A stretch of 64,000 nucleotides of DNA from an uncultured Gemmiger sp. (GTDB lineage: Bacteria > Bacillota > Clostridia > Oscillospirales > Ruminococcaceae): the NCBI GenBank assembly GCA_947629015.1, contig CANRCB010000001.1, positions 1-64,000 of the forward strand, given 5' to 3'. The first letter of the stretch is position 1. Every line of letters starts with the position of its first letter. The notes under the pieces were generated by a model, which saw nothing but the letters and a program-made list of their open reading frames with translations, was not told where the DNA came from and ran no database searches. A program made the position numbers and the translations under genes. This document shows, one piece after another, positions 2,870 through 29,610 of the stretch.

Positions 2870-2871
2870 TT

Positions 2872-2997
2872 AAGAGTGGAGTTTGGAGAGTGGAGAGTGG
2901 AGATGGAAGGGGAAAAACGGTGATATGTTTTTAAGATCCGTGCCGCTTTGCGGCACACCGCAACTCCACTTTCCACTTTCCACTCTTAACACTCAAA
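2872..2997. repeat. Heptamer purine/pyrimidine inverted-arm repeat element (copy 1)
   Basis: Left arm gtggagtttggagagtggagagtggag, right arm ctccactttccactttccactctt, central gtgccgctttgcggcac hairpin. Confidence 0.75.
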
Positions 2998-3004
2998 CGG
3001 ATAC

Positions 3005-4213
3005 TCAAACCTCCACCCCGGCGGCCAGCAATTCGATAAACTGCCGTGCCACGCGCGGGCTGCGCCCGCCGGCGCGCAGGGCGAACGCCTCGCCCCGGAG
3101 AAACAGCTGGTCGGCGGGGCGCTGCACGCCGTACTGGCGCGCCAGCTCCAGCAAAATGGCCTGATAGCGGGCCTTGTCCGGCCGCTGGAAGGTCACCGTC
3201 AGGCCAAACCGGGCCGAGAGGCTCATCAATTCCTGCCGGGTGTCCATCTCGTGGATGTCGTCCCCGCTGCGGTCGGCCAGCGTCTCCTTTACAAGGTGCC
3301 GCCGGTTGGAGGTCGCGTAGACCGCCACGTTGTGGCTGCGCCCGCCGGCGCTGCCCTCCAAAATGGCCTTGAGGGCGGCAAAGTCATCGTCGTTGGCGGT
3401 AAAACTCAGATCGTCGATGAACAGGATGAACTTGAGCGGGTTTTCCGCCAGCTGGTCCATCACGGCGGGGATCTGGTAAAGCTGGTTCTTTTTGATCTCC
3501 ACCAAACGCAGGCCCCGCGGCGCATACTCATTGGCCAGCGCCTTCACGGTGCTGGATTTGCCGGTGCCCGCGTCGCCGTACAGCAGCACGTTGTTGGCGG
3601 GCCTGCCGGCCAGCAGGGCCTCGGTGTTCTCCACCACCTTGCGGCGCTCGGCCTCGTAGCCGGGCAGGTCGGCCAGGCGCTGCGGGTCGGGGCAGTGCAC
3701 CGGCACCAGCGCGCCGTCCTCCACCGTGAACACATGGTGGCGCGCAAAGATGCCGTACCCCTTCTGCCCCACCTCGGCAAGGCGCTGCGCGTAGGCGGCG
3801 GGCAGGTCGATGGCGTCGGTGCCCCAGGCGGGCAGAAAGGCGCAGGCATCGCGGGCGGCGCCGTCCAGCCCCGCCAGGATATCCCCAAGCCGCAGCGCGC
3901 CCAGCGTTTGCAAAAACGCAAGCTCCTGCGCAAGGCAGGCATCGGCCAGCGGCCCCGCCCCGCCCGCGGCGGCCTTGCGGATGCAGGGGTTTTCGTCCTC
4001 CAGCACGGCGTCGGCAAGGGCCGCCGTCCAGCTGCCGCCGTAGGGCAGCAGGCTTGCCTCAAAGTCCGCCACCGCGGGCACAAGGCGCGCGGGCGCGGCC
4101 TCCTGCCCGCGCAGGTACAGCACCATGCGCAGGTATTGCACCGGCGCGGTTTGCAAAATGCCGCGGAACACCACAAGCCCTTCCAGCCGCAGCGCCATCT
4201 CATCCAACGTCAT
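3005..4213 (-). CDS. DUF815-family AAA+ ATP-binding protein
   Basis: Walker A YGDAGTGKSS, Walker B FILFIDDLSF, family motif LVEIKKNQL. Confidence 0.85.
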   Translation of the reverse strand: MTLDEMALRLEGLVVFRGILQTAPVQYLRMVLYLRGQEAAPARLVPAVADFEASLLPYGGSWTAALADAVLEDENPCIRKAAAGGAGPLADACLAQELAFLQTLGALRLGDILAGLDGAARDACAFLPAWGTDAIDLPAAYAQRLAEVGQKGYGIFARHHVFTVEDGALVPVHCPDPQRLADLPGYEAERRKVVENTEALLAGRPANNVLLYGDAGTGKSSTVKALANEYAPRGLRLVEIKKNQLYQIPAVMDQLAENPLKFILFIDDLSFTANDDDFAALKAILEGSAGGRSHNVAVYATSNRRHLVKETLADRSGDDIHEMDTRQELMSLSARFGLTVTFQRPDKARYQAILLELARQYGVQRPADQLFLRGEAFALRAGGRSPRVARQFIELLAAGVEV

Positions 4214-4406
4214 TAAGAACATTCCTTTCGCATTTGAGCGCGCTTTTTGAACAAAAGCGCAGTTCCAGTATAAACGATTGTTGGCCGCGTTGCAAGATTT
4301 TGCGCCGCGCCGGTTGACAAAATCCCCGCAGCGTGTATCCTGTTTAATATATGTAAGGAAAGAATGACGCTGCATCGGGCCACCCGGGAAGGAGAAACGA
4401 CACGGC

Positions 4407-6071
4407 ATGAAGCTCAACGGCTCACAGATCTTTGTCGAGGTATTGGCGGAGCAGGGGGTGGATACCCTGTTCGGCTACCCCGGCGGCGCGGTACTCAATT
4501 TGTATGATGAGCTCTACAAAAACCGCGACCGCATCCGCCATATCCTGACGGCGCATGAGCAGGGCGCCGCCCACGCGGCGGACGGCTACGCCCGCGCCAC
4601 GGGGCGCACCGGCGTGGTGCTGGCCACCAGCGGCCCCGGCGCCACCAACCTTGTCACCGGCATTGCGACCGCGTATATGGACAGCATCCCCCTCGTCGCC
4701 TTTACCGGCAACGTGGGCACCGCCCTGCTCGGCAAGGACAGCTTTCAGGAAGTGTACATCGAGGGCATCACGGTGCCCATCACCAAGCACAACTTCACCG
4801 TGCGCCGCGTCGAGGATCTGGCCGATACCATGCGCGCCGCCTTCCGCATCGCCCAGAGCGGGCGCAAGGGGCCGGTGCTCGTCGATATCCCCAAGGACGT
4901 CACCGCCAACGTGTGTGAGTTCACGCCCAAAGCGCCGGAGCTCATCCGCACCGTGACCGTCTATGATGAGGAAAAGGTTTTGAAAGCGGCCGAGCTCATC
5001 AACACGGCGCGCCGGCCCATCGTCTGCTTTGGCGGCGGCGTGCGCAGCGCCGCCGGCTGCCAGCCGCTGCGGGACCTTGTGCACAAGGGCGATATCCCCG
5101 CCACCTACACCCTGATGGGCACCGGCGTGCTGGACTATGGCGAGCCGCACAACCTCGGGATGCTGGGCATGCACGGCTGCTACGCCGCCAACAAGGCGGT
5201 GTCGGAGGCGGACCTCGTCATCGCCGCCGGTATGCGCTTCTCCGACCGCGTGGCCTTGAAGCCCGAGGCATTTGCCCCCAAGGCAAAGATCATCCAGATC
5301 GACATCGACCCCAGCGAGCTGGGCAAAAACGTCCCGGTCGATCTGAGTTTGGCGGGCGATGTCTCCTACGTACTGCAGGCCATTTTGCCGCATATCGAGC
5401 AGCGCTACCATATGCTGTGGACGGAGCAGATCGAGGCCTGGCAGAAAAACGACTACCACCCCAAGGATTCCGATACCGAGCTGCGCCCGCACCAGATCAT
5501 TGAGGAGATCTGCGAACAGTGCGGCCCCGACGCCGTGTATGTGACCGATGTCGGCCAGCACCAGATGTGGGCGGCGCAGTACCTGCACCACACCCAGAGC
5601 CGCGGCTTTATCACCAGCGGGGGCCTGGGCACCATGGGCTTTGGCTACGGCGCGGCCATCGGCGCGCAGGTGGCCCTCGGCACGGACAAGCGGGTCGTCA
5701 TGCTCACCGGCGACGGCAGCTTCCACATGAACCTCAACGAGGGGTGTACCGCCGTCAGCTACGGGCTGCCCATCATCACCGTCATCTTCAACAACCAGGT
5801 GCTGGGCATGGTGCGCCAGTGGCAGACCGCCTTTTACGGCAAACGCTATTCCTGCACAGACCCCGGGCGCAGGACGGATTTCGTCAAGCTGGCCGAGGGC
5901 TTTGGCGCCAAGGGCTACCGCTGCAATACCATCGCCGAGTTCCGCGCCGCCTTTGCCGATGCCCGCCTGCAAAAGGGCCCCAGCTGGATCGACTGCCGCA
6001 TCGCCAAGGACGAAAAGGTCCTGCCCATGATCCCCGGCGGCGGCGATATCAACGATATCATCATGGAATGA
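4407..6071 (+). CDS. ilvB: Acetolactate synthase large subunit
   Basis: MKLNGSQIFVEVLAEQGVDTLFGYPGGAVLNLYD..., TPP-binding motif GDGSFHMN. Confidence 0.95.
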   Translation: MKLNGSQIFVEVLAEQGVDTLFGYPGGAVLNLYDELYKNRDRIRHILTAHEQGAAHAADGYARATGRTGVVLATSGPGATNLVTGIATAYMDSIPLVAFTGNVGTALLGKDSFQEVYIEGITVPITKHNFTVRRVEDLADTMRAAFRIAQSGRKGPVLVDIPKDVTANVCEFTPKAPELIRTVTVYDEEKVLKAAELINTARRPIVCFGGGVRSAAGCQPLRDLVHKGDIPATYTLMGTGVLDYGEPHNLGMLGMHGCYAANKAVSEADLVIAAGMRFSDRVALKPEAFAPKAKIIQIDIDPSELGKNVPVDLSLAGDVSYVLQAILPHIEQRYHMLWTEQIEAWQKNDYHPKDSDTELRPHQIIEEICEQCGPDAVYVTDVGQHQMWAAQYLHHTQSRGFITSGGLGTMGFGYGAAIGAQVALGTDKRVVMLTGDGSFHMNLNEGCTAVSYGLPIITVIFNNQVLGMVRQWQTAFYGKRYSCTDPGRRTDFVKLAEGFGAKGYRCNTIAEFRAAFADARLQKGPSWIDCRIAKDEKVLPMIPGGGDINDIIME

Positions 6072-6084
6072 AGGAGGCCGCACG

Positions 6085-6711
6085 ATGGAACAAAACCAGC
6101 CAACCCCCGCCCAGCGCCGCGTCATCAGCCTGCTGGTCGAAAACCAGAACGGCGTTTTGGCCCGTGTGTCCAGCCTGTTCTGCCGCAAGGGCTTCAACAT
6201 CGACAGCCTCACCGTCTCCACCACGCGGGACCCCGCCGTCAGCCGCATCACCGTCACGCTGCGCGGCTCGCAGCGTGAGGTCGAGCAGCTGCTTTTGCAG
6301 ACCGAACGCCTGGAGGTCACCCGCCAGATCTTTGAGCTGCGGCCGGACAATTCCCTCCAGCGGGAGCTGCTGCTGCTGAAGGTTGAATGTGACGCAACCA
6401 ACCGCTCCCAGCTGTGGGAGCTGGCCAATATGTACAAGGCCAAGCTGCTGGATATGTCGCCCGACAGCATGGTCGTGGAGTTGACCGGCAAGCCGGAAAA
6501 GATCGATGCCTTCCTCACCATGTTCGAGGGGTACACCGTGCTGGAAATGTGCCGCACCGGCGTCACGGCGCTGGAGCGCGGCGGCCGCCACCCCCATATG
6601 CAAAAGCCCCCGCAGGAGGTGCGCGCCGTCCAGCTCAAGGATATCGAGCTCACGCGCCATCCCGCCAAAGGCGCGCCGGCCCGGCCGGCGGCGGACGAGG
6701 CGCAGCCCTGA
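6085..6711 (+). CDS. ilvN: Acetolactate synthase small subunit
   Basis: ACT-domain sequence VISLLVENQNGVLARVSSLFCRKGFNIDSLTVS; directly follows ilvB. Confidence 0.93.
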   Translation: MEQNQPTPAQRRVISLLVENQNGVLARVSSLFCRKGFNIDSLTVSTTRDPAVSRITVTLRGSQREVEQLLLQTERLEVTRQIFELRPDNSLQRELLLLKVECDATNRSQLWELANMYKAKLLDMSPDSMVVELTGKPEKIDAFLTMFEGYTVLEMCRTGVTALERGGRHPHMQKPPQEVRAVQLKDIELTRHPAKGAPARPAADEAQP

Positions 6712-7806
<1,095 letters not shown>

Positions 7807-7818
7807 ATGATGCAAAAA

Positions 7819-8015
7819 GGCTTCCCCCTCCGGGGGAAGCTGTCGCCGAAGGCGACTGATGAGGGGGAAGGGCGGCCGTTTGCGGGGGTGTTTCCCACCC
7901 TCACCCCTCATCCGGCCGCTTCGCGGCCACCTTCCCCCCTCCGGGGGGGAGGGCTGCTCCCGTCCCCTCATCCGTCTGCGCTTCGCGCAGACACCTTCCC
8001 CCGGAGGGGGAAGGC
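7819..8015. repeat. Composite palindromic repeat cluster between ilvC and ilvD
   Basis: Three units of CCTTCCCC...GGGGAAGG plus a variable GAAG/CTTC hairpin plus GATGAGGGG; one forward, two inverted. Confidence 0.85.
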
Positions 8016-8036
8016 AAATTGGAAGGAGTTTTTTCT

Positions 8037-9701
8037 ATGCGCAGCGACAACGTGACCAAAGGCCCCGAGCGCGCGCCCAACCGCAGCTTGTTCTACGCCC
8101 TCGGCTACACCAAAGAGGAGCTGGAGCGCCCGCTCATCGGCGTCGTGTCCGCCCACAGCGAGATCGTGCCCGGCCACATGGACCTGGACAAGCTCGCCGA
8201 GGCCGTCAAGGCCGGCGTGCGCATGGCGGGCGGCACGCCCATCCTCATCCCGGCCATCGGCGTGTGCGACGGCATCGCCATGGGCCACATCGGCATGAAA
8301 TATTCCCTCGCCAGCCGCGAGCTCATCTGTGACAGCGTCGAGACGATGGTCATGGCCCACCAGCTGGACGGCGTGGTGCTCGTGCCCAACTGTGACAAGA
8401 TCGTGCCCGGCATGGTCATGGCCGCCGTGCGCATGGATGTGCCGGCCGTGGTGTGCTCCGGCGGGCCGATGCTCGCCGGCACCTACGGCGGCGAGAGCGT
8501 CAGCCTTTCCAAAATGTTCGAGGCCGTCGGCGCCTACAAGGCCGGCCTCATCACCGACGAGCAGCTGGAGGACTGCACCTGCAACTGCTGCCCGGGCTGC
8601 GGCTCCTGCTCCGGTATGTACACCGCCAACAGCATGAACTGCCTGTGCGAGGCCATCGGCATCGCGCTGCCCGGCAACGGCACCATCCCGGCCGTCTACG
8701 CCAAGCGCCTGCAGCTGGGCAAGCAGTCCGGCATGGCCGTCATGGAGATGGTGCGCCGGGGCATCACCGCGCGCCGGATCATCAACGCGCGCAGCATCCG
8801 CAACGCCCTTACCTGCGATATGGCCCTGGGATGCTCCACCAACACCGTGCTGCACCTGCTGGCCATCGCGCACGAGGCGGGCGTGGATATTGATTTGAAA
8901 CTTTTCAACGAGATATCGGCCAAAACGCCCAACCTCTGCCACCTGGCCCCGGCCGGGCCCACCCATATGCCGGACCTGTACGCCGCCGGCGGCATCCCCG
9001 CCGTGCAGGCCGAGCTCGTCAAAAAGGGCCTGCTCGACCTCGACGTGCCCACCGTCACCGGCAAGACCCTGGGCGAGAACCTTGCCGAGCTCAAGCCCGT
9101 CAACAAAAACCCCAACGCCATCCGCCCCATCTCGGACCCCTACAGCGCCACCGGCGGTTTGCAGATCCTTTGGGGCAACATCGCGCCGGACGGCTGCGTC
9201 GTCAAGCGCAGCGCCGTCGCGCCCGAGATGCAGCGCCATGCCGGCCCCGCCCGCGTCTTTGACAGCGAGGAGGCCGCCATCGACGCCATCTACAACGGCC
9301 GCATCGTGGACGGCGACGTCGTCGTCATCCGGTACGAGGGGCCCAAGGGCGGCCCCGGTATGCGCGAGATGCTCAACCCGACGAGCGCCCTCGCCGGCAT
9401 GAACCTGGACAAGACCGTCGCCCTCATCACCGACGGCCGCTTCTCCGGCGCCTCGCGCGGGGCGGCCATCGGCCACGTCTCCCCGGAGGCCGCCGCCGGC
9501 GGGCCCATCGGCCTCATCGAAGAAGGGGACACCATCGAGATCGACATCCCCGCGGCCTCCATCCGCCTGGCCGTCAGCGATGAAGAGCTTGCCCGCCGCA
9601 AGGCCGCCTACACGCCGCCGGAGCCCAACATCAAAACCGGCTGGCTGGCGCGCTACGCCCGCATGGTCACCAGCGCCAACCTCGGCGCCGTGGTGCAGTG
9701 A
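8037..9701 (+). CDS. ilvD: Dihydroxy-acid dehydratase
   Basis: [28 protein letters not shown]..., [18 protein letters not shown] motif. Confidence 0.96.
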
Positions 9702-9718
9702 GCCTGCCGTTTGCCCCT

Positions 9719-9756
9719 CGCCGCCCGGCGCCCTTTGGCGCCGGGCGGCGCTTTGT
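9719..9756 (+). terminator. Intrinsic terminator of the ilv cluster
   Basis: cgccgcccggcgcc-cttt-ggcgccgggcggcg perfect hairpin followed by ctttgtg. Confidence 0.7.
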
Positions 9757-9764
9757 GCTCCAGG

Positions 9765-9794
9765 TTGACAGGGGTCTGCCCTGCACGCTATAAT
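9765..9794 (+). promoter_or_regulatory. Promoter for the G9-tract gene
   Basis: TTGACA (9765-9770), 18-nt spacer, TATAAT (9789-9794); AGGAGG RBS before ATG 9845. Confidence 0.7.
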
Positions 9795-9844
9795 CAAAAA
9801 AACGGGCCTGCCCGCCACGCTGCGGGTAAGGACAGGAGGAAATT

Positions 9845-11066
9845 ATGACAGAATATCTGCTTTCGGACGAAAAAATCCTCTGGGGGGGGGTTAAGATGGC
9901 AACAGCTGACGGAGGAAAGGCTGCGGGACGAAAAATGCCTTGAACGGTACGGCTACAAGGTCTATTCCCAAAACGACGAGGACGGCATCCTGCAGGAGAT
10001 CTTCCGCCGCATCGGCACGACCAACCGCTTTTTTATCGAGTTTGGCGTCCAGGACGGGCTGGAGAGCAACGGCCACTACCTGCTGCACCTTGGGTGGCAG
10101 GGCTACTGGATGGAAGGCAGCGCGGAATATGTGGAACAGATCCGCCGCAAGTTCCATCCGGTGTTGGCTGCCGGCCAGCTGCGCTGCAAGCAGGCGTTCA
10201 TCACCCGCGAAAACATCAACGCCCTCCTGCGTGAGGCCGGGCCCCCGCGCCGGCCGGATCTGCTCAGCATCGACATCGACGGCAACGACTACTATGTCTG
10301 GCAGGCGGTCACCGAGGTGGACGCGCGGGTCGTCGTGATAGAGTATAACGGCAAATTCCCGCCCGACTGTGACTGGAAGATGGCCTATGACCCCAACCAC
10401 ATCTGGGACGGGTCGGACTGGCACGGCGCCTCGCTCAAAGCGTTGGAGCTGCTGGGCGCGCAACGGGGCTACCAGCTGGTCGGCACCAACCTTTCCGGTG
10501 CCAATGCGTTTTTTGTCAAAAAGGAGCTGGCAGGGGAGCTGTTCTGCCAACCCGCGACTGCACAGGCCCTGTACAACCCCCTGCGCCTGGGGCTTAAACA
10601 CCGCAACGGCCATCCGGCGCGCTACTGCCTGCGCGGCCAGGCGGAGGGCCTTGGTGTGCTGAACTACGCCCCGGGGGTGAAGGCTGTCCCGGGTTACGGG
10701 TTCCATGAGATCGAGCGGGACGGCACAAAGGAACACTGCTGGACTGCGGCGCCGGAAAGCCGGCTGACGGTCCGCCGCAGCCCCGGGGATACCTGCCTGC
10801 GGCTGCCCTGCACGGTGCCGCAATGCGTTTTGGAGCGCTGCGGCGGGCGATACCCGGTGCGGGTAGCGGCCGGGCAGGCGCCGGCGGCCGAATATTTTGT
10901 CACGGAAAACAGCGTGCTGGAGATCCCGCTCCCTCCCGTAGAGGAGGCGTGCGTCTGCCTGACCCTCAGCGCGCCCTGCCTGTGGAGCCCGGCGGAGGTT
11001 TCCGGCTCCGCCGACACGCGCCGCCTGGGCGTTTCGGTCTGCCTGAGCGGCATCACCACCGGCTGA
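9845..11066 (+). pseudogene. FkbM-like (SAM-dependent) methyltransferase, frame interrupted at a G9 homopolymer; phase-OFF allele or frameshifted
   Basis: ATG 9845 frame stops soon after G9 (9882-9890); removing one G joins it to the 10110..11066 frame (...IEFGVQDGLESNGHYLLHLGWQGYWMEGSAEYV...LLSIDIDGNDYYVWQAV...), ~406 aa. Confidence 0.75.
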
Positions 11067-11178
11067 CAATACGGCATACCGGGGAAAACGATACCTTACA
11101 GGGCGGCACCCGCACCGGGGCTTTACGCATCCGGCGCGGGTGCCTGTGCATTGGCCGGCCTTTGCCCTGCGGCCCCAC

Positions 11179-11207
11179 TTGATTTTGCGGTGCGGAAATG
11201 CTACAAT
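11179..11207 (+). promoter_or_regulatory. Putative promoter for the M16 peptidase operon
   Basis: TTGATT-17 nt-TACAAT. Confidence 0.5.
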
Positions 11208-11276
11208 ACATTTTAGCTTTTTGCCTGCATTCCGCCGCTTTTGGCGCCATCCAGTTCAAGAAAGGACCCTGCCGTT

Positions 11277-12554
11277 TTGGAACGCACACAACTGGCCCCC
11301 GGCGTGTTTTTGACCACGCTCCCGGCCGATAAATTCAAGCGCTGCCGCATCGCCATCCATCTGCGCTTCCCGGCGCTGCGCGCCGCCGCCACCGATACCG
11401 CCGTGCTGCCGCTGGTGCTGGAGCGCGGCTATGCCGCCTGCCCGGATATGACGCGCCTGTCCCGCCGGCTGGCGGAGCTTTACGGCGCCGACCTCGGCGT
11501 GGACCTCTCGGCCGCCGGGGTGGACCGCGTGCTCTCGGCCGATATCTGCGGAATCAAGGATGAGTACGCCCTCGCGGGTGAAAACCTGACCGAGGCGTAT
11601 GCCGGCATCGTGTTCGGCGTCGTGTTCGAACCGTACCTCGTGGACGGCGTGTTCGACGCCGAGGCCGTGCGCATCGAGAAGGAGACCCTGGCCCGCCGCC
11701 TGCAGGCCGAATACAACAACAAGCGCCTGTACTGCGTGCGGCAGGCGCGCCGCAAATTTTACGGCCACGGCCCCGCCGCCATCGAGCTGGGCGGCTATCG
11801 CAAGGACCTGCCCGCCGTCACGCCGCAGACGCTCAAGGCCGAGTATGACCGCATCCTGCAAAGCGCCTTCATCGACGTCGTGGTGCAGGGGGCCGATGCC
11901 GCGCGCGTGGGGCAGATGCTGCTGCGCCGCCTCGAAAACATCCCCCGCGCGCCGCAGCCCTTCACCCCGCCGCTGGCCATGCCCCGGCAGGATGCCGCGC
12001 ACTACGCCGAGGCCATCCCCGGCCTGACACAGGCCAAGCTGTGCCTGCTGTTCACCACCGGCACGCCCGACCCGCTGCCCGATATCCATCTTCTGCGCCT
12101 GGCCATGGGCGTGTACGGCGGCAGCCCCACCAGCCGGCTGTTCCGCAACGTGCGGGAAAAACAGTCCCTTTGTTACTACTGCGCGGCGGCCGCGCAGCTG
12201 GCCACCGGCGCCATGATCGTGGATTCCGGCGTGGAGCCGGGCGGCGAGGCGCGCGCCGAGGAGGCCATCCTGCAAGAGCTGCGTGACCTGCAAGCCGCCC
12301 CGCCCGCCGCCGATGAGCTGGAGGATGCCCGCCGCGCCCTGCTTTCCGGCATGGACGCCGCGTCGGACAGCCTGGGCGCGCTCGAAAGCTGGTACTACGG
12401 CCAGATCCTGCGCGGGGAGGAGCCCGTCGCCCCCGCCCGCGCGCAGGAATTGACCCGGGCCGTCACTGCCGAACAGGTGCGCGAGGTACTGGCCCGCTAC
12501 AGCTTCTCGGTCTCGTATGCCGTCACGGCGGGAAAGGACAACGCCCATGGATAA
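11277..12554 (+). CDS. M16-family peptidase-like protein (YfmF-like), probable TTG start
   Basis: ERTQLAPGVFLTTLPADKFKRCRIAIHLRFPL...; paired with a second M16 gene. Confidence 0.82.
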   Translation: MERTQLAPGVFLTTLPADKFKRCRIAIHLRFPALRAAATDTAVLPLVLERGYAACPDMTRLSRRLAELYGADLGVDLSAAGVDRVLSADICGIKDEYALAGENLTEAYAGIVFGVVFEPYLVDGVFDAEAVRIEKETLARRLQAEYNNKRLYCVRQARRKFYGHGPAAIELGGYRKDLPAVTPQTLKAEYDRILQSAFIDVVVQGADAARVGQMLLRRLENIPRAPQPFTPPLAMPRQDAAHYAEAIPGLTQAKLCLLFTTGTPDPLPDIHLLRLAMGVYGGSPTSRLFRNVREKQSLCYYCAAAAQLATGAMIVDSGVEPGGEARAEEAILQELRDLQAAPPAADELEDARRALLSGMDAASDSLGALESWYYGQILRGEEPVAPARAQELTRAVTAEQVREVLARYSFSVSYAVTAGKDNAHG

Positions 12555-13821
12555 CAGCATCCTGCAACAAAAGGCCGCCGCGGCCGTCGGCTGCCGGCGC
12601 TTCACGCTGGAAAGCGGGCTCACGGTGCTGGTGCGCCCCATGCCCGGCTACAGCACCGCCTACGCCATGTACGGCACGGGTTTTGGCTCCGTCTGCCGGG
12701 ATTTTGTGCTGGACGGCACCCCCGTGCATCTGCCCGCCGGCACCGCGCATTTCCTGGAGCACAAAATGTTTGAGTCCGAGCAGGGCGACGCCTTTGACCT
12801 GTACGCCCGCACCGGCGCCTCGGCCAACGCCTTCACCTCCCATGAGCGCACGTGCTACCTTTTCTCCTGCACCAAAGGGCTGGAGGAAAACCTCGATATC
12901 CTGCTCAACGTCGTCGGCACGCCCTATTTTACCCAAAAGACCATCGCCAAGGAACAGGGCATCATCGGGCAGGAGATCAAAATGTATGACGACAACCCGG
13001 ACTGGCGCCTGCTCACCGGGCTGCTGCGCTGCCTGTACGCGTGCCACCCCGTCCGGGACGATATCGCCGGCACCGTCCAAAGCATCGCCACCCTCACGCC
13101 GGAGCTGCTCTACGCCTGCACCACGGCCTTCTACCGCCCCGCCAACATGGTGCTGGCGGTGGCCGGCAACGTGACCGAGCAGCAGGTGCTCGATGCCTGC
13201 CGGCGCGCCGGGCTCGACCGCCCGGCCCCCGCCCACACGGTCGTGTATGCCCCGCCCGCCGAGGCCGGCCCCATCCCGCAGAAGGAGACGGTGTTTTCCA
13301 TGCCGGTCAACAAGCCCTGCTTTGCGCTGGGCTACCGGCTCGAGCCCATCGCCCGCGGCGACGCCCGGCGCGAGGTGCTGTGTGATATGCTGCCGGAGCT
13401 TGTCTGCGGCGGCCTGACGGATCTTTATCGCAAGCTGTATGACGAGGCCCTCGTCAACCCCGAGTTCAGCGGCGACGTCGTGGCCGCCGACGGCTGCTGC
13501 GCCATCGCCTTTACCGGCGAGAGCGATACCCCGCGCGCGGTCGCCGACCTGCTGCGCGCCGAGATCGCCCGCCTGCGGCGCCAGGGGGTGGATCCGGAGC
13601 TGTTCGGCCTTGTCAAGAACCAGATCTACGGCGACCTCATCTCCGATTTGGAAAGCGCCGACGATACCGCCGAGGCCCTGCTCAGCGCCCAGCTCAAGGG
13701 CTACACGCTGGAGGAGCAGATCGCGGCGCTGGCCGCCCTGACCCCCGCCGATGCCGACGCCGCCCTGCGCGCCGCCTTTGACGAGGCGCAGAGCGCCTAT
13801 GTCGAGATACAGCCGCAATAG
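12547..13821 (+). CDS. M16-family metallopeptidase (YfmH-like)
   Basis: HFLEHKMFE (HxxEH zinc motif); overlaps the upstream M16 gene. Confidence 0.88.
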   Translation: MDNSILQQKAAAAVGCRRFTLESGLTVLVRPMPGYSTAYAMYGTGFGSVCRDFVLDGTPVHLPAGTAHFLEHKMFESEQGDAFDLYARTGASANAFTSHERTCYLFSCTKGLEENLDILLNVVGTPYFTQKTIAKEQGIIGQEIKMYDDNPDWRLLTGLLRCLYACHPVRDDIAGTVQSIATLTPELLYACTTAFYRPANMVLAVAGNVTEQQVLDACRRAGLDRPAPAHTVVYAPPAEAGPIPQKETVFSMPVNKPCFALGYRLEPIARGDARREVLCDMLPELVCGGLTDLYRKLYDEALVNPEFSGDVVAADGCCAIAFTGESDTPRAVADLLRAEIARLRRQGVDPELFGLVKNQIYGDLISDLESADDTAEALLSAQLKGYTLEEQIAALAALTPADADAALRAAFDEAQSAYVEIQPQ

Positions 13822-13935
13822 GAAAGTGGAGTTTGGAAAGTGGAGTTTGAAAAGTGGAAAGTGGAAAGTGGAATTGGATCTCTCCACGCTCCACTCTCCG
13901 CTCTCCGCTCTCCGCTCTCCGCGCTCCGCGCGCAA
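13822..13935. repeat. Heptamer purine/pyrimidine inverted-arm repeat element (copy 2)
   Basis: gtggagtttggaaagtggagtttg... followed by ctccacgctccactctccgctctccgctctccgc. Confidence 0.75.
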
Positions 13936-13973
13936 CATTTTGACCCTTTTTCGGATTTTGGCAGGAGGCCAAT

Positions 13974-15101
13974 ATGACCAACATCGTCACCTTCCCGGCC
14001 CTTGGCTGGACGTTTACCGTAAACCGTGTGCTTTTGCACATCGGCAGCTTTGACCTTTACTGGTACGGCGCGCTCATCGCGCTGGGTATGCTGCTGGCGC
14101 TGGTGTTCGCCTTCCACTACGCGCCGGATTTCGGCATCGACGGCGACCGCCTTGTCGATGTCGTCATCATCGGCACCGTCATGGCCATCGTCTGCGCGCG
14201 CGCGTACTATGTCGCCTTCGCGCCGTTTGAATACCACTCCATCTGGGAAGTGCTGGATATCCGCAACGGCGGCATCGCCGTGTACGGCTCCATCATCGGG
14301 GCGTTTTTGTTCGGCGGGCTGGCCGCGCGCTGGCGCAAAATACCGCTGCTGCCGCTGTTCGATCTGGTCGGCATGGGGTTCCTCATCGGGCAGGCCGTCG
14401 GGCGGTGGGGCAATTTCGTCAACCAGGAGGCGTTTGGCACCAACACCACGCTGCCGTGGGGCATGTACAGCGCCGCCACCCAAAGCTACCTCACCTCGGT
14501 GCAGGCGGCCCTTGCCGCCGAGGGCGTCACCGTCGACCCGGCCCTGCCCGTGCACCCCACCTTTTTGTATGAATCGCTGTGGTGCGCGCTGGGCTTTGTG
14601 CTGATCTTCCTGCGCATGAAAAAACGCCGCTTTGACGGCGAATTGTTCCTTGATTACATCATCTGGTACAGCATCGGCCGCTTTTTCATCGAGGGCGTGC
14701 GCACCGATGCGCTCATGCTCACCGCCACGCTGCGCGTCAGCCAGGTGGTGGCGGTGGCGGCCATCGCCGTCTCGCTCATCCTGTGGGCGGTGGGGCGCCG
14801 CCGGCAGGGCACCGAGCCGCTGAAAGTGCCGCTGGCCGTGGCCGATATCAAAAAGCGGAAAGACGGCCCCCTCGCCGTCATCCCCGAACGCCTGCCCGCC
14901 TCGGCCCCGCATAAGGAGTTCGCGGCGGCCACCCGGGCCATGAACGCGCGCCTGGCCGCCCCGCAAGAAGATGCCCACGCGGAGGATGCCCCTGCGGAGG
15001 ATATGCCCGCAGAACAGGGTGCCCCCACCCCGCCGCAAGATGACGCGCCCGCAGCCCCTGTAGGGGGCGGCGTCCCCGACGCCCCGCAAAAGGAGGAATG
15101 A
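13974..15101 (+). CDS. lgt: Prolipoprotein diacylglyceryl transferase
   Basis: IGSFDLYWYGALIALGMLLAL..., GRWGNFVNQEAFG. Confidence 0.92.
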   Translation: MTNIVTFPALGWTFTVNRVLLHIGSFDLYWYGALIALGMLLALVFAFHYAPDFGIDGDRLVDVVIIGTVMAIVCARAYYVAFAPFEYHSIWEVLDIRNGGIAVYGSIIGAFLFGGLAARWRKIPLLPLFDLVGMGFLIGQAVGRWGNFVNQEAFGTNTTLPWGMYSAATQSYLTSVQAALAAEGVTVDPALPVHPTFLYESLWCALGFVLIFLRMKKRRFDGELFLDYIIWYSIGRFFIEGVRTDALMLTATLRVSQVVAVAAIAVSLILWAVGRRRQGTEPLKVPLAVADIKKRKDGPLAVIPERLPASAPHKEFAAATRAMNARLAAPQEDAHAEDAPAEDMPAEQGAPTPPQDDAPAAPVGGGVPDAPQKEE

Positions 15102-15104
15102 CCC

Positions 15105-15965
15105 ATGCCCGCCCAAATCATTGACGGCAAGGCCCTTGCCGCCCAGGTCAAGGCCGAGGCCGCCGCGGCTTGCGCCGCGCTCAAGCAAAAGGGCATTGCG
15201 CCCTGCCTGGCCGTCGTGCTGGTGGGGGAAGACCCCGCCAGCCAGGTCTATGTGCGCGGCAAGGTGAGTGACTGCGCCCAGTGCGGCATCGAAAGCCGGG
15301 AGCACCGCCTGCCGGCCACAACCACCCAGGCCCAGCTGCTGGCGCTCGTCGGCAGGCTGTCGCAGGACCCCGCCGTGCACGGCATCCTGGTGCAGCTGCC
15401 GCTGCCCGCCCACATCGACGAGCAGGCCGTCATCAACGCCATCCCGCCGGAAAAGGACGTCGACGGGTTCTCGCCCCTCAACGTCGGGCGTATGCAGCTG
15501 GGCCAGCCCTGCTACCTGCCCTGCACGCCGGCCGGCTGCCTGCGCATGATCGAGAGCACCGGCACCGCCATCGCCGGCAAAAACGCCGTGGTGGTGGGCC
15601 GTTCCAACATCGTCGGCAAGCCGATGGCGCATCTGCTGCTCGCGCACGATGCCACCGTCACCGTCTGCCACTCCAAAACGCGGGGGCTGGCCGGCATCTG
15701 CCAAAACGCCGATATCCTCGTCGCCGCCGTGGGGCGGCAGGGCTTTGTCACCGGCGATATGGTCAAGCCCGGTGCCGTCGTCATCGACGTCGGCATCAAC
15801 CGCGGGCCGGACGGCAAGCTGCACGGCGATGTCGATTTTGCCGCCGTGGCCGAAAAAGCCGCCTTCATCACGCCGGTGCCCGGCGGCGTCGGCCCCATGA
15901 CCCGCGCCATGCTCATGCAAAACACCGTCGCCGCCGCCGCAAGGCAGACCGGTGCGGGGCACTGA
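15105..15965 (+). CDS. folD: Bifunctional methylenetetrahydrofolate dehydrogenase/cyclohydrolase
   Basis: [21 protein letters not shown]..., [31 protein letters not shown]. Confidence 0.95.
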
Positions 15966-23948: not shown

Positions 23949-23988
23949 CAGAAAAGGCGTTGATTCGTAAAAATCAACGCCTTTTCTG
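23949..23988 (-). terminator. Hairpin/terminator directly beside the tRNA-Tyr 3'-end remnant
   Basis: cagaaaaggcgttgatt / aatcaacgccttttctg 17-bp perfect arms. Confidence 0.6.
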
Positions 23989-24019
23989 GTGGGAGCTGGT
24001 GGTACGCCGAGCCGCGGGC
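23987..24019. repeat. Putative att-like direct repeat (left), contains 16 nt of tRNA-Tyr 3' end
   Basis: tggtgggagctggtggtacgccgagccgcgggc; 30/33 identical to 29418-29450. Confidence 0.7.
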
Positions 24020-24182: not shown

Positions 24183-24917
24183 CTAATCGCCAGAATTAAA
24201 GGCAACGAGTTTTTCCCAATCGATACTTCCGTCAGCAAAACAGAACTCCTGCGTAAATTCCCTTACCAAACGGTTGGCCGCTTTCTGGTAAGAAGTGTTG
24301 AATTCTTCTACATACTTTTCCGGAAGTTTATCCATGTAACGGATCAATTTTATATAAAATTCTTCATCGCCGGTCAATTCTGTCCAGAAATCTTTCCCGG
24401 CCAGTTCCAGGTAGAACTTTGGCATACCCTTATTTGAGGGCTTTTTCTTCCCGTATCCATAACCGACGATGGGGACAAAACGTTTCCGGGCCTGCTGTGC
24501 CAGTTTGCCCGCGGCCATGAAGTTCTGCTCCTGCTTTTTACGGCTGTCGGCATTGAAAACGCTTGTGCCAGACTTGACGGCAATAGCATAAATAGTGCTA
24601 TCGCGCTCCACCATGATGTCTACGCCTTCGGCAAGCGCTTTCTGACCGTGCGCAGCAGCAGTGGCGATCGGCTCAAAAAACACATTGCCAAATATCGTTT
24701 CTTCAGAGGAAGAAACAAACGCGGCAAGGATGGCCTCTACGATTTGGGAGGCCCCGTTCATTGCTTTGGCCCTGAAAAGGTACGGGTTTTTACGCCGCAT
24801 GACTTGCTTGATATTCAGCTTGTCGATCTTTTTGATCAAGTTGGTGTAAAATCGATCCAGCGCATCCGCAATTGCTTCTACAATGGCTTGCCCGTCATAA
24901 GTTTCATTTATTGGCAT
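24183..24917 (-). CDS. PmeII-family-like type II restriction endonuclease
   Basis: MPINETYDGQAIVEAIADALDRFYTNLIKKIDKLNIKQVMRRKNPYLFRAK...SSSEETIFGN; EGVDIMVERDSTIYAIAVKSG PD-(D/E)XK-like; overlaps the MTase 3' end. Confidence 0.75.
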   Translation of the reverse strand: MPINETYDGQAIVEAIADALDRFYTNLIKKIDKLNIKQVMRRKNPYLFRAKAMNGASQIVEAILAAFVSSSEETIFGNVFFEPIATAAAHGQKALAEGVDIMVERDSTIYAIAVKSGTSVFNADSRKKQEQNFMAAGKLAQQARKRFVPIVGYGYGKKKPSNKGMPKFYLELAGKDFWTELTGDEEFYIKLIRYMDKLPEKYVEEFNTSYQKAANRLVREFTQEFCFADGSIDWEKLVAFNSGD

Positions 24918-26100
24918 AATGGTTCCCTCCGATCTCAATTGCATCCCGTAGCTTTTGATGGACGACTGTCCCTCGGAAACGTTTGGTCTGTATGGCTGCA
25001 GACTGGTCTGCCACGGCAAGGACGGCTTCACCGATGGCCTGCGCAAGCCCAACAGGTACAGCGTTACCGATCTGCCGGTACTTTGCGGCAGTCGTGCCAA
25101 TAAAATGCCAATCTTCCGGAAACTGCTGGATACGTGCATATTCTTTTATGCTCAACGGCCGATCCTGCCTTGGGTGGCACATCATGGTAGCCTTTTGGAC
25201 GGGCGAAGTCACTAGAGTGGGGGAGGGCTGGCTGTATGACAACCTGCGGTAAAATCCTACTTTGCCGCCGCCGGAACCATAGGCACCGCCCATCGCTTCT
25301 TTCTGCATTTCCGGCGGAAGGTCTTTCCAGTTGCCACCCTCCGGCACAAGCCGTAAATACTCAAGCCGGTCTTTGCTGAAGGCCATGCACTCACCACAGT
25401 CTGCCTCCAGATCCGAAATGCTGTCCCGCAAGGTACACCAACGGTATGCAGGGTCTTGATGCATCTGGAAATGGGTGGGGATTGGCAGGAAAATATCCTC
25501 GTGGTCGCGGCTGCCGATCAGGACAAACCGTTCACGGAATTGGGGCACACCATAGTTGGCGGCATCCAAAAGCCCATATACAGTTTTGTATCCAAGTTTG
25601 TCAAACTCTGAAAGGATAACGTCCAAGACCGTGCCAAGGCGCTGGTTTGGATCGGTTTCGTCCCTCTCTGCCAGCGGGACATACTTGAGCGGGGCCGACA
25701 TGATCCCCTTGACGTTTTCCATAATGAAGAACCGCGGGCGGATGGTATCGATCATCCGGATAAAATCCATAAAAAGGCTGCCGCGGGGATCGTTGATACC
25801 AAGACGTTTCCCAGCCGTCGAAAATGGTTGGCAAGGCGGCCCCCCGCAAATCAGAAACGGTTCCCCAAAATCCATCCCGCTGGCATCCAACAAATCTGAC
25901 GGCTCAAGTGTGCGGATATCCCCGCCGAGCACATTATGGCCATTGGCGCGCATGGTGGCAACGCAGGCAGCATCAAAATCCTGCCCAACGGCGATCCGCA
26001 GCCCGGCCATTGCCAAACCAATGTCCAGGCCCATGGCCCCGGAAAACAAGGAAACAACAGCCCGGTTGCGGGAATCATCCCTATACTTCAAGAGTTGCAT
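24904..26100 (-). CDS. DNA (cytosine-5-)-methyltransferase
   Basis: VVSLFSGAMGLDIGLAMAG, GGPPCQPFSTAGKR, FIMENVKG motifs. Confidence 0.95.
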   Translation of the reverse strand: MQLLKYRDDSRNRAVVSLFSGAMGLDIGLAMAGLRIAVGQDFDAACVATMRANGHNVLGGDIRTLEPSDLLDASGMDFGEPFLICGGPPCQPFSTAGKRLGINDPRGSLFMDFIRMIDTIRPRFFIMENVKGIMSAPLKYVPLAERDETDPNQRLGTVLDVILSEFDKLGYKTVYGLLDAANYGVPQFRERFVLIGSRDHEDIFLPIPTHFQMHQDPAYRWCTLRDSISDLEADCGECMAFSKDRLEYLRLVPEGGNWKDLPPEMQKEAMGGAYGSGGGKVGFYRRLSYSQPSPTLVTSPVQKATMMCHPRQDRPLSIKEYARIQQFPEDWHFIGTTAAKYRQIGNAVPVGLAQAIGEAVLAVADQSAAIQTKRFRGTVVHQKLRDAIEIGGNHYANK

Positions 26101-26110
26101 TTTGCCCTCC

Positions 26111-26320
26111 TTAAACCTTGTCCCCATTCGGGAGGATAAAATACCGCTCAAAAGTACAGCCTGCAGCAGCTGCCAGATATTCAAGGTCGGCCACAGTAAA
26201 ACTCTCCCGCTTGAGTTTGGCACTGAAGTTTTGCGGCGTTGTCCCCATGCGCCTGGCCAATTCTGCCGAGCTAATATTAGAACGGATGCAAAGGATTTTT
26301 ATCTGCTCGCTGATCGTCAT
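26111..26320 (-). CDS. XRE-like HTH protein, candidate R-M controller
   Basis: MTISEQIKILCIRSNISSAELARRMGTTPQNFSAKLKRESFTVADLEYLAAAAGCTFERYFIL; 10 bp upstream of MTase. Confidence 0.8.
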   Translation of the reverse strand: MTISEQIKILCIRSNISSAELARRMGTTPQNFSAKLKRESFTVADLEYLAAAAGCTFERYFILPNGDKV

Positions 26321-26385
26321 TGCAATTCCCCACAAAAATAAAGCGATAAATATAATTTATAAAATAATAAATTTAAATTATAAAA

Positions 26386-26844
26386 TTAGTCCCTATTTTC
26401 TTCCATTATATCATCGAATGTCTGTAACTGCAACTCAAAAATCAAATCTTCGATGGCGCCAATACACTCAGGGAGACGTTTTGTGATTTCTTGGCCCCAA
26501 AAATGCATGGGTATCCAATCCAAGGCGAGAAGGGCAAAATCGTTTTCCCGGTCACGTGTCATGTTGCGCTCGATTTTTTTGATCCAATAATCACGGTTTT
26601 CACCCAGCCGCAGTTTCTTTATCTCCCAATTGTATCCGTGGAAGAACTCACTATCGCAAAAAATAGCAATTTTGTATTTGGTGAGGGCTATATCCGGTGT
26701 ACCTGGCAGGGCTTTATAGTTTTTCCGGTACCGATACCCTTTGTGCCACAGGGCCTTCCGTAAAGCAACTTCTATGCTGGTATCTTTCCCCTTGATATGG
26801 CCCATCGTGCGGCTACGCTGGGCAGGGGACATCATATCACCCAT
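26386..26844 (-). CDS. vsr: Very short patch repair endonuclease
   Basis: MSPAQRSRTMGHIKGKDTSIEVALRKALWHKGYRYRKNYKALPGTPDIALTKYKIAIFCDSEFFHG. Confidence 0.95.
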   Translation of the reverse strand: MGDMMSPAQRSRTMGHIKGKDTSIEVALRKALWHKGYRYRKNYKALPGTPDIALTKYKIAIFCDSEFFHGYNWEIKKLRLGENRDYWIKKIERNMTRDRENDFALLALDWIPMHFWGQEITKRLPECIGAIEDLIFELQLQTFDDIMEENRD

Positions 26845-26962: not shown

Positions 26963-28459
26963 TTATTCAAAGATAGAAGTTATCTTGAAAAACAATTCTG
27001 GTGCTGACACAACGATAAGGGCGATCTTTTCACGTACACGAGTGATACCTTGGTAAAATAGATTTGGATACAGATAATTTGGATTGGGATGCCGGATCCC
27101 CCGCAGCTTGTTATATTCATCATAGTAAAAAGAATCATCCAACAGCATCAAAACCTTATCAAATTCCTGTCCGATTACATGATGTGTATCATAATCTTCC
27201 TTATATGCCGAAAAAGGGCTGGGGTAAAAATTCGATTTTGAGTAATTAATAAAAACGTATTCTTGCTGCCGATAATATTCAATCAGCCGACAAGCCTCAT
27301 CGAAGTTGGCAGCATATAACAAAGAAACATTATCATAAGACATAGAAGTGGCGGGCTTCAAATTCAAATCTATTACTTGGGCAATAAATGAGGCTAATGC
27401 TTTATTCGTACGGATCTTCCCGGTTAGTGTGTATTTTTCAAGTAAGGGCAATGCTAATATTTTGCCAACGATATCATTTTGCTTTTCTGATGATGAGAGC
27501 ACTTGATCAGGATCAGAAGAAAAAATACAGATTTTTTTGCCTTCATTAACTTTGTCGCAAAGGCTACGGAACTGCGCCAAATGGAAACGATGTGCTTCGT
27601 CCACAAGGATATATTGATAAGTGTCAATAATTTCTGGACGCCCTTTAAGTCGGCCGGCCTCAATAATCGCAAAGTTATTGATGGCTTTTTCTAACTGCTG
27701 GTAGGTTTCAGGTAATTTGCCGCAATGAATAATAGCGGTTGGCATCCATTGGGAAAGCTGCCGTGCCAAATCATATACCAACAAGGTCTTGCCGGTACCA
27801 GGTTTTCCAATGATACTATAAAAGCCATCCTGTCCTTGAATATATATATCATTAAGGATCTTCTTTTTGATTTCATCTTGCGCCTGTGTTAAAAAGTATT
27901 TTTCATCAATAAATTTTTCCGGCGTATTCAGTGGCGAAACCAAAAAATCTGATGCTCGAAACATAGTATCAATTTGTGACAGATGGTCGTATTCGAACTG
28001 TTTTATAGCATCTGCTACGCAGGAAAAGGCAATTGACTGCAGATGGCCATCCTCTGTCAATTTGTAACAAGTCAGGGGACTCGTTACCACAGTATACAAA
28101 TGCAGTTTCTTACCTATATGCGCAAGATAGTGCTTGTTCTTTTGTAATTGCGATAAAATGTCGCTGGTGGAAACGGGTTGACTTTTGAGCTCAATATTTA
28201 GGCAGTCATGTTCCGTAAACTTAAGTAAATCGAATTCTTTCCCGATTTGAGGGATTTTATACCCAAAATAGAATCCATCCAGTTGGTTTATTGATATACC
28301 ATTTTCCAACAAGCCATCGACCAAGAGGCGCAGCGATAGAATCTCATGTGTCTGTGTATGTTTGCACTCGTCGCTGCCGGAAGCGTGCTTTTCAACTCGA
28401 TGAAAAGCAGTTTCATCTGTTATCCGAGATAAAGCGTAAAGGTTTACAGGTCTCGTCAT
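26963..28459 (-). CDS. PD-(D/E)XK-like N-terminal domain fused to DUF2075-like SF1 helicase/ATPase
   Basis: KEFDLLKFTEHDCLNIELKSQ; Walker A IIGKPGTGKTLLVYDLA; YILVDEAHRF; C-terminal ...LFYQGITRVREKIALIV. Confidence 0.8.
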   Translation of the reverse strand: MTRPVNLYALSRITDETAFHRVEKHASGSDECKHTQTHEILSLRLLVDGLLENGISINQLDGFYFGYKIPQIGKEFDLLKFTEHDCLNIELKSQPVSTSDILSQLQKNKHYLAHIGKKLHLYTVVTSPLTCYKLTEDGHLQSIAFSCVADAIKQFEYDHLSQIDTMFRASDFLVSPLNTPEKFIDEKYFLTQAQDEIKKKILNDIYIQGQDGFYSIIGKPGTGKTLLVYDLARQLSQWMPTAIIHCGKLPETYQQLEKAINNFAIIEAGRLKGRPEIIDTYQYILVDEAHRFHLAQFRSLCDKVNEGKKICIFSSDPDQVLSSSEKQNDIVGKILALPLLEKYTLTGKIRTNKALASFIAQVIDLNLKPATSMSYDNVSLLYAANFDEACRLIEYYRQQEYVFINYSKSNFYPSPFSAYKEDYDTHHVIGQEFDKVLMLLDDSFYYDEYNKLRGIRHPNPNYLYPNLFYQGITRVREKIALIVVSAPELFFKITSIFE

Positions 28460-28579
28460 CTGCGAAGTTCCTCCAAAGATTATAGTTTATAAATTGCGAT
28501 TATATTTTCTATATTAAAATCCACCGCACAGTTGGTGGCAGAGGTGCAGTGAAAAGCAGAGTTATACAATATTCTCGCT

Positions 28580-29164
28580 TTATTTGATCTGCTCCTCGAA
28601 AAACGCCACCAGATGATCCATAATACCCTGCGCTGCGTGTATCGTCGCCATCATCAGCAAATCGGTATCGGCTTGCGAAAAGTCCAGCTCATAGTCAAAG
28701 GACCGCAGCCAATGCTGAAAGAAAACACGCTGTGTGCGGCCATTGCCTTCGCGGAACGGGTGCAGCAGATTGATGGTGTTATAAAAATCTGCCACGGCCA
28801 CCGCGCGCTCATGAACGGAAAGAGTCCGCAGGTCGGTGCTGACCAATCGGTCAAAACACACGTTGGCAACGCGCTTAATCTGCGCGGCGGGCATAAATAC
28901 TGTGCCGCGTTTGCTCAAGTCGATATCGCGCACCTGCCCGGCCCAAGCGTACAGGTCGCAAAAGAGATATTGATGGATGCCCTTGTAGAAGGCAAAATCG
29001 AAAGGCCCCGACAAAGGCTTGTGGAACAGCTCGCTGGTTTTGCCCAGCGTGAGCGCAGCCTCTGTCGCGGCCAGGATGTTTTCATCATGGATGTCCAGCA
29101 GGTTTACAAGGCAGGTCGTGCCGGGGTAGCAGTCCTGCCCGGTTGCTTCCATATCATACGCCAT
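28580..29164 (-). CDS. fic: Fic/DOC-family toxin (AMP-transferase-like)
   Basis: Canonical Fic motif HPFREGNGRTQR. Confidence 0.95.
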   Translation of the reverse strand: MAYDMEATGQDCYPGTTCLVNLLDIHDENILAATEAALTLGKTSELFHKPLSGPFDFAFYKGIHQYLFCDLYAWAGQVRDIDLSKRGTVFMPAAQIKRVANVCFDRLVSTDLRTLSVHERAVAVADFYNTINLLHPFREGNGRTQRVFFQHWLRSFDYELDFSQADTDLLMMATIHAAQGIMDHLVAFFEEQIK

Positions 29165-29165
29165 A

Positions 29166-29333
29166 TCAACTGCCCTTTCGCTCGATGGCCAGCGCCACGT
29201 ACTCGCTCATGGTGATCTCGCCGCGCAGAAGCCGGCGGCAAAGTTCTTCATAGACAGGCTTGGCCGTCAGCCCCTCCATACGGAGCGACGCGACCGCGTT
29301 GGCGATGGATTTTTCCACAGACATCGGCGCCAT
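29166..29333 (-). CDS. VbhA-like antitoxin of the Fic pair
   Basis: MAPMSVEKSIANAVASLRMEGLTAKPVYEELCRRLLRGEIT; SLRMEG matches the class I Fic inhibitory motif (S/T)xxxE(G/N); 1 nt from fic. Confidence 0.85.
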   Translation of the reverse strand: MAPMSVEKSIANAVASLRMEGLTAKPVYEELCRRLLRGEITMSEYVALAIERKGS

Positions 29334-29417
29334 GCAAGTGCCCTCCTGTTTGATGCTACAACCAGTATACGGCATTTTTGGCTTTTATACAATATAAAGT
29401 TTCGGATTATTTGTTGT

Positions 29418-29450
29418 TGGTGGGAGCTGATGGTGCGCCGAGCCGTGGGC
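29418..29450. repeat. Putative att-like direct repeat (right)
   Basis: tggtgggagctgatggtgcgccgagccgtgggc; 30/33 identical to 23987-24019. Confidence 0.7.
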
Positions 29451-29483
29451 CGCCCTGTTCGAGCCCTGCCAGTACCGGCACCA

Positions 29484-29522
29484 AAAACGACCGCCCTGCC
29501 GGGGTACGGCAGGGCGGTCGCT
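29484..29522 (-). terminator. tRNA-Tyr intrinsic terminator
   Basis: On minus strand: cgaccgccctgccgtaccccggcagggcggtcg followed by tttttgg. Confidence 0.75.
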
Positions 29523-29524
29523 TT

Positions 29525-29610
29525 TGGTGGGAGCTGGTGGATTCGAACCACCGAAGCATTACGCAGCAGATTTACAGTCTGTCCCCATTGGCCACTCGGG
29601 AAAGCTCCCA
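29525..29610 (-). tRNA. tRNA-Tyr (anticodon GTA), CCA encoded
   Basis: tgggagctttcccgagtggccaatggggacagactgtaaatctgctgcgtaatgcttcggtggttcgaatccaccagctcccacca; cloverleaf with long variable arm. Confidence 0.95.

Follow-up and report, generated by a model that had tools for sequence, protein, structure and literature searches.

The gene at 26963..28459 on the minus strand of the 64,000-nucleotide stretch of uncultured Gemmiger sp. DNA analyzed here (the window) very probably represents an intact, single-protein AbiO/Nhi anti-phage system with predicted activity, in which a PD-(D/E)XK nuclease is fused to a superfamily 1 (SF1) helicase of the Schlafen-group-3/DUF2075 type. Its family membership follows from the Nhi and AbiO profiles, both of which match the protein end to end, and this full-length match is accompanied by the predicted fold, complete catalytic motifs, a scattered occurrence that includes mobile elements, and a location within a genomic island. 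A first-pass annotation of the same DNA had proposed the gene as a candidate defence effector of a poorly characterized kind and as a possible new anti-phage component. A defence role is indeed likely; the claim to novelty falls with the full-length match, as AbiO/Nhi is a family whose single-gene defence role has been studied earlier (PMC11811056, PMC12904381, PMC10732053). The nuclease-helicase is a further member of this known family and no new type of defence, and what had been a possible new effector is replaced by a firm AbiO/Nhi assignment.

Family assignment, catalytic motifs, and predicted fold

The open reading frame is intact, opens with an ATG, and encodes the following elements.

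28469..28474, minus strand: Shine-Dalgarno-like GGAGGA, ending 9 nt 5′ of the ATG
26963..28459, minus strand: AbiO/Nhi-family nuclease-helicase, 498 aa, intact (PADLOC PDLC02372 and PDLC02350; Pfam PF09848)
27956..28459, minus strand: predicted N-terminal PD-(D/E)XK nuclease domain, residues 1-168 (AlphaFold2 and Foldseek)
28127..28237, minus strand: nuclease motif E75-F-D77 ... E90-x-K92 ... Q104 ... Y111 (83-sequence alignment)
27785..27808, minus strand: Walker A GKPGTGKT, residues 218-225 (G221, G223, and K224 invariant)
27590..27604, minus strand: Walker B/VDEAH, residues 286-290 (D287 invariant, E288 in 82/83)
27164..27172, minus strand: SF1 motif V-like GQE, residues 430-432 (G430 and E432 invariant)
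27038..27040, minus strand: motif VI arginine R474, within YQGITRVREK (invariant)

Residues 3-497 are aligned with nearly the whole of both PADLOC models, namely, positions 2-469/470 of Nhi (PDLC02372; E=1.8e-138, 460.1 bits) and positions 2-467/468 of AbiO (PDLC02350; E=2.9e-138, 459.6 bits). The C-terminal helicase is additionally matched by Pfam PF09848 (SLFN-g3_helicase; E=2e-7, above its cut-off), and one plasmid relative carries the annotation "DUF2075 domain-containing protein"; both bear out the DUF2075-type SF1 helicase that the first reading had recognized.

Motif conservation was assessed in an alignment of 83 diverse homologues with 29-65% identity. The nuclease residues E75, F76, D77, E90, K92, and Q104 are invariant (E75, D77, E90, and K92 lie within GKEFDLL...LNIELKS of the ORF), Y111 is kept in 82 of the 83, and the helicase residues G221, G223, K224, D287, R350, G430, E432, and R474 are likewise invariant. 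Since the key residues do not vary across the 83 homologues, the nuclease and helicase motifs cannot be ascribed to chance, and the same residues constitute targets for mutation. The Walker A motif, DEAH-like box, and C-terminal helicase motif reported from the letters alone are all present, with K224, D287, and R474 as their invariant representatives. The succession of D, ExK, and then Q and Y one helix on (Q104-x6-Y111) corresponds to the PD-(D/E)XK motif in its RecB/Cas4-like form.

The AlphaFold2 model of the full nuclease-helicase, computed with the 83-sequence alignment as input, has a mean pLDDT of 93.5 and a pTM of 0.87; residues 1-168 modelled alone reach 94.5 and 0.90. The N-terminal domain is predicted to follow the order helix-strand-strand-strand-helix-strand (H37-52, E63-68, E75-81, E85-92, H98-115, E118-125), which places D77 on strand 2 and E90/K92 on strand 3 of the model. 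Foldseek matches to this domain are weak and mostly of the PD-(D/E)XK fold (ACE1/Cas4 family, cap-snatching nucleases, and a restriction-endonuclease-like protein), the best PDB match being the Cas4-family nuclease ACE1 (E=5.4e-4, probability 0.96), itself weak with a TM of about 0.3. A PD-(D/E)XK nuclease core topology is thus supported for the predicted domain; the nuclease-core-like pattern initially noted there holds up, and the AlphaFold check proposed for it predicts a nuclease fold. Searched as a whole, the model matches SLFN11 (top), RecD2, Upf1-like helicases, and Dda. At the sequence level, a phmmer search of the PDB with the nuclease-helicase returned no real homologue, and a profile search of the PDB yielded weak Dda, RFC, and SLFN11 matches and nothing stronger.

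Related systems and predicted mode of action

The closest points of reference are the two namesakes of the family. Nhi of Staphylococcus epidermidis (SERP2475) is described as a lone nuclease-helicase that protects without abortive infection (PMC11811056). It shares with the window protein the full-length profile match (PDLC02372), the two-domain architecture, the single-gene organization, and a mobile, plasmid-borne spread; it differs in its very different host and its other neighbours, the comparison being made through the PADLOC profile. The likeness to lactococcal AbiO (PDLC02350) is likewise drawn through the PADLOC profile and consists of an equal full-length match.

At 460.1 versus 459.6 bits, the Nhi and AbiO models are not separable for the window protein, which makes a phenotype read from its sequence uncertain. 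Both models also match family members from plasmids, phages, and prophages, the AbiO score exceeds the Nhi score in several gut Clostridia and plasmid relatives, and a published survey shows that one and the same protein can receive both labels (PMC11811056). In the literature, AbiO counts as an abortive system and Nhi as a non-abortive one (PMC11811056). Taken with the equal scores and with the relatives that favour the AbiO model, this classification renders an AbiO-like abortive action, in place of the non-abortive clearance of staphylococcal Nhi, a quite conceivable variant of the assignment, though somewhat short of probable: the models overlap so heavily that a score difference carries no phenotype, and the abortive label of AbiO stems from lactococcal Abi gene naming and not from a mechanism seen here.

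For the AbiO/Nhi assignment itself, we infer the trigger, substrate, and outcome from the staphylococcal relative. Later papers describe Nhi as sensing the phage single-stranded-DNA-binding protein (SSB) and as nicking and unwinding DNA, and a phage as evading it by gaining a different SSB (PMC12904381, PMC10732053). By analogy, the helicase of the window protein would most likely engage phage replication or recombination intermediates during infection, with the phage SSB as its putative recognition cue, a trigger that is drawn from one staphylococcal member of the family. ATP would drive its translocation and unwinding, accompanied by nicking of the phage DNA by the nuclease domain, and nicking would lead to loss of that DNA and a stop to replication.

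Other helicase-nuclease defences are more distant. Hna likewise unites helicase and nuclease in one effector, which is reported to be stimulated by phage SSB (PMC13381803), but it combines an SF2 helicase with a C-terminal PD-(D/E)XK nuclease, that is, the opposite domain order and another superfamily, and its model is absent from the PADLOC matches of the window protein. SF1 helicase motifs are shared with GajB of Gabija, a weak PADLOC match (1e-4), and with the Schlafen helicase domain of SLFN11, the top Foldseek match and a relative through Pfam SLFN-g3_helicase. For both, however, the likeness is local to the motor domain, and the nuclease partner and architecture differ.

Distribution of homologues

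Full-length matches alone were taken into the distribution counts. With the source genome included, they were found in 2/35 genomes of the genus, 5/199 of the family, 5/298 of the order, and 5/399 of the phylum. Most order-level PDLC02372 hits at E<=1e-3 cover the ATPase motor region only and look like AAA+ housekeeping proteins; these were left uncounted. One scan of the collection with an alignment as query recovered at least 434 related loci, of which 80, mostly from gut Clostridia, were kept, which portrays AbiO/Nhi as widespread though patchy in gut Clostridia; a scan of the collection's contigs with a single-protein query gave no matches. Relatives also occur on 116 plasmid records, 24 viral contigs, and 4 phage records, and AbiO/Nhi genes are reported mostly from plasmids (PMC11811056). 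The distribution of the family is patchy and mobile, with few genomes per clade and with locations on plasmids, prophages, and islands.

This distribution bears on whether the protein might instead be a housekeeping DNA-repair helicase-nuclease with no part in defence. The SF1 helicase is akin to the RecD2, Dda, and SLFN folds, and PD-(D/E)XK nucleases also act in repair. A repair enzyme is nevertheless highly unlikely and was rejected, given that the gene is missing from 33 of the 35 genus genomes and from most of the family, that its homologues reside on plasmids, prophages, and islands, and that it is itself part of a low-GC island that a congener lacks.

Two observations concern individual relatives. 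Among the plasmid records listed, 10 from Enterococcus (H92-H101) match residues 1-184 only, at 26% identity; they carry the nuclease domain without a helicase of the window type and represent genes that have been truncated or else a family of their own. At locus L048, the gene of a homologue with 56% identity shares an overlap with the 253-aa ORF upstream of it, which has a HELCH metallopeptidase-like motif (9219-9977), and a nearby HTH protein (8653-8898) is 57% identical to that of the window.

The tRNA-Tyr island and its cargo

The nuclease-helicase resides in a 5.43-kb low-GC island together with an EcoO109I-type restriction-modification (R-M) system, a small HTH protein, Vsr, and Fic with an antitoxin-like ORF. 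The GC fraction is 0.38-0.57 over about 24.0-29.5 kb, compared to about 0.58-0.72 in the flanks. The remaining features of the island and its borders are listed below.

23987..24019, plus strand: left att-like direct repeat, 33 bp
24183..25139, minus strand: EcoO109I-type restriction endonuclease (REase) ORF (Pfam RE_EcoO109I E=1.8e-60, residues 86-271)
24904..26223, minus strand: C5-cytosine methyltransferase (C5-MTase; Pfam DNA_methylase E=2.1e-66)
26111..26335, minus strand: small HTH protein, probable R-M regulator (Pfam HTH_26 E=4.4e-7)
26386..26844, minus strand: Vsr mismatch endonuclease (Pfam Vsr E=4.7e-25; NCBIfam TIGR00632 E=4.6e-36, above cut-off)
28580..29164, minus strand: Fic adenylyltransferase, VbhT-like toxin half (Pfam Fic E=2.4e-12; PADLOC PDC-S04 E=3.1e-59)
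29166..29375, minus strand: 69-aa Fic antitoxin-like ORF with an SLRMEG ([ST]xxxE[GN]) motif, assigned by inspection
29418..29450, plus strand: right att-like direct repeat, 33 bp, 91% identical
29525..29609, minus strand: tRNA-Tyr(GTA); both repeats open with the 15-mer of its 3′ end (29526-29540)

The last 15 bases of the tRNA-Tyr recur almost exactly in both 33-bp repeats, and this 15-mer, with one degenerate position, occurs three times in the genome, always at the island site. In the congener G899, the flank gene is joined directly to the equivalent of window positions 29451-29545, leaving an empty site (contig G899:C182, which ends soon after the junction, with the tRNA-Tyr itself outside). 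The low GC, the att-like repeats, and the empty site substantiate the island that had been postulated. The tRNA-Tyr site looks like a recurrent insertion hotspot with exchangeable cargo in the genus, since another congener, G904, holds a different insert there, and it offers a practical spot to seek more defence genes. That 4.6-kb insert has a copy of the tRNA end on one side and the tRNA-Tyr on the other (L238, G904:C1:217500-226500; 2599-7254) and carries an MFS transporter, an HTH protein, and an integrase-like ORF.

As to the cargo, the REase start is more likely at the in-frame Met75, at about 24917. The small HTH protein is probably the R-M controller; an HTH gene also lies directly upstream of the MTase on contig G899:C152. 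Vsr and Fic, named as the neighbours of the nuclease-helicase in the first-pass annotation, are confirmed by their Pfam matches, and the 69-aa ORF upstream of Fic has an SLRMEG motif like that of class I Fic antitoxins (FicA/VbhA). Between the repeats, the ORF list of the window contains no integrase; five integrases above their family cut-off are encoded on other contigs of the source genome. It is conceivable, if rather improbable, that the block is an integrase-less passenger island at a tRNA-Tyr hotspot, moved in and out by integrases acting in trans, whose defence layers would be selected together, the nuclease-helicase serving as a second line against phage DNA that has evaded methylation-based restriction.

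The placement of these genes had also implied a tie between the nuclease-helicase and the Vsr/C5-MTase pair, and the three might form one functional module, with the nuclease-helicase belonging to the R-M system or being directed by it. They are indeed adjacent and on the same strand in the window, and at one locus (L088) a homologue lies about 2 kb from a Vsr 61% identical to that of the window. A survey of 79 homologous loci (1.14 Mb), however, found Vsr within 10 kb of a homologue in that locus only (1/79) and a detectable C5-MTase in 2/79, both lower bounds from single-query BLAST (for the latter, with the C5-MTase of the window). No neighbour family recurs among the 148 nearest proteins from 39 loci, at most 4 of which share one Pfam family (ABC_tran). 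The HTH-MTase-REase core of G899, at 75-79% amino acid identity, has no adjoining Vsr or Nhi (L236, G899:C152; 580-2716), and a published survey of the B. cereus group reports a negative correlation between Nhi and R-M systems (PMC11811056). Nhi is separated from Vsr by about 118 bp and from Fic by about 120 bp, spacings that speak against a tight operon. With co-occurrence with Vsr and C5-MTase not conserved, an R-M-coupled module is scarcely tenable and was rejected. On genomic grounds, it is supported that AbiO/Nhi works without a conserved partner gene; the R-M genes, Vsr, and the Fic pair are best read as independent cargo of a shared island and not as Nhi partners, and the link of Nhi to Vsr and the C5-MTase is accidental.

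The wider neighbourhoods of the homologues show 106 matched PADLOC families among 148 neighbour proteins versus 55 among 137 proteins from random regions of related genomes, in a small and noisy sample. Recombinases, sought with four queries, lie near homologues in 8/79 loci versus 1/38 shorter controls and are not clearly raised. Defence neighbours are encountered as single cases, with type I R-M genes adjoining the G881 homologue and an Stk2-like kinase adjoining that of L088. In G881 (L237, G881:C382:4000-19488; 6232-15487), the Nhi gene lies directly downstream of smpB and is followed by an AlbA/Schlafen-like ORF and then the type I R-M genes. In L088 (5527-18206), Nhi sits between the Stk2-like kinase gene and the Vsr/C5-MTase genes with two tyrosine integrases close by, and the region is an integrated element whose cargo comprises several layers of defence.
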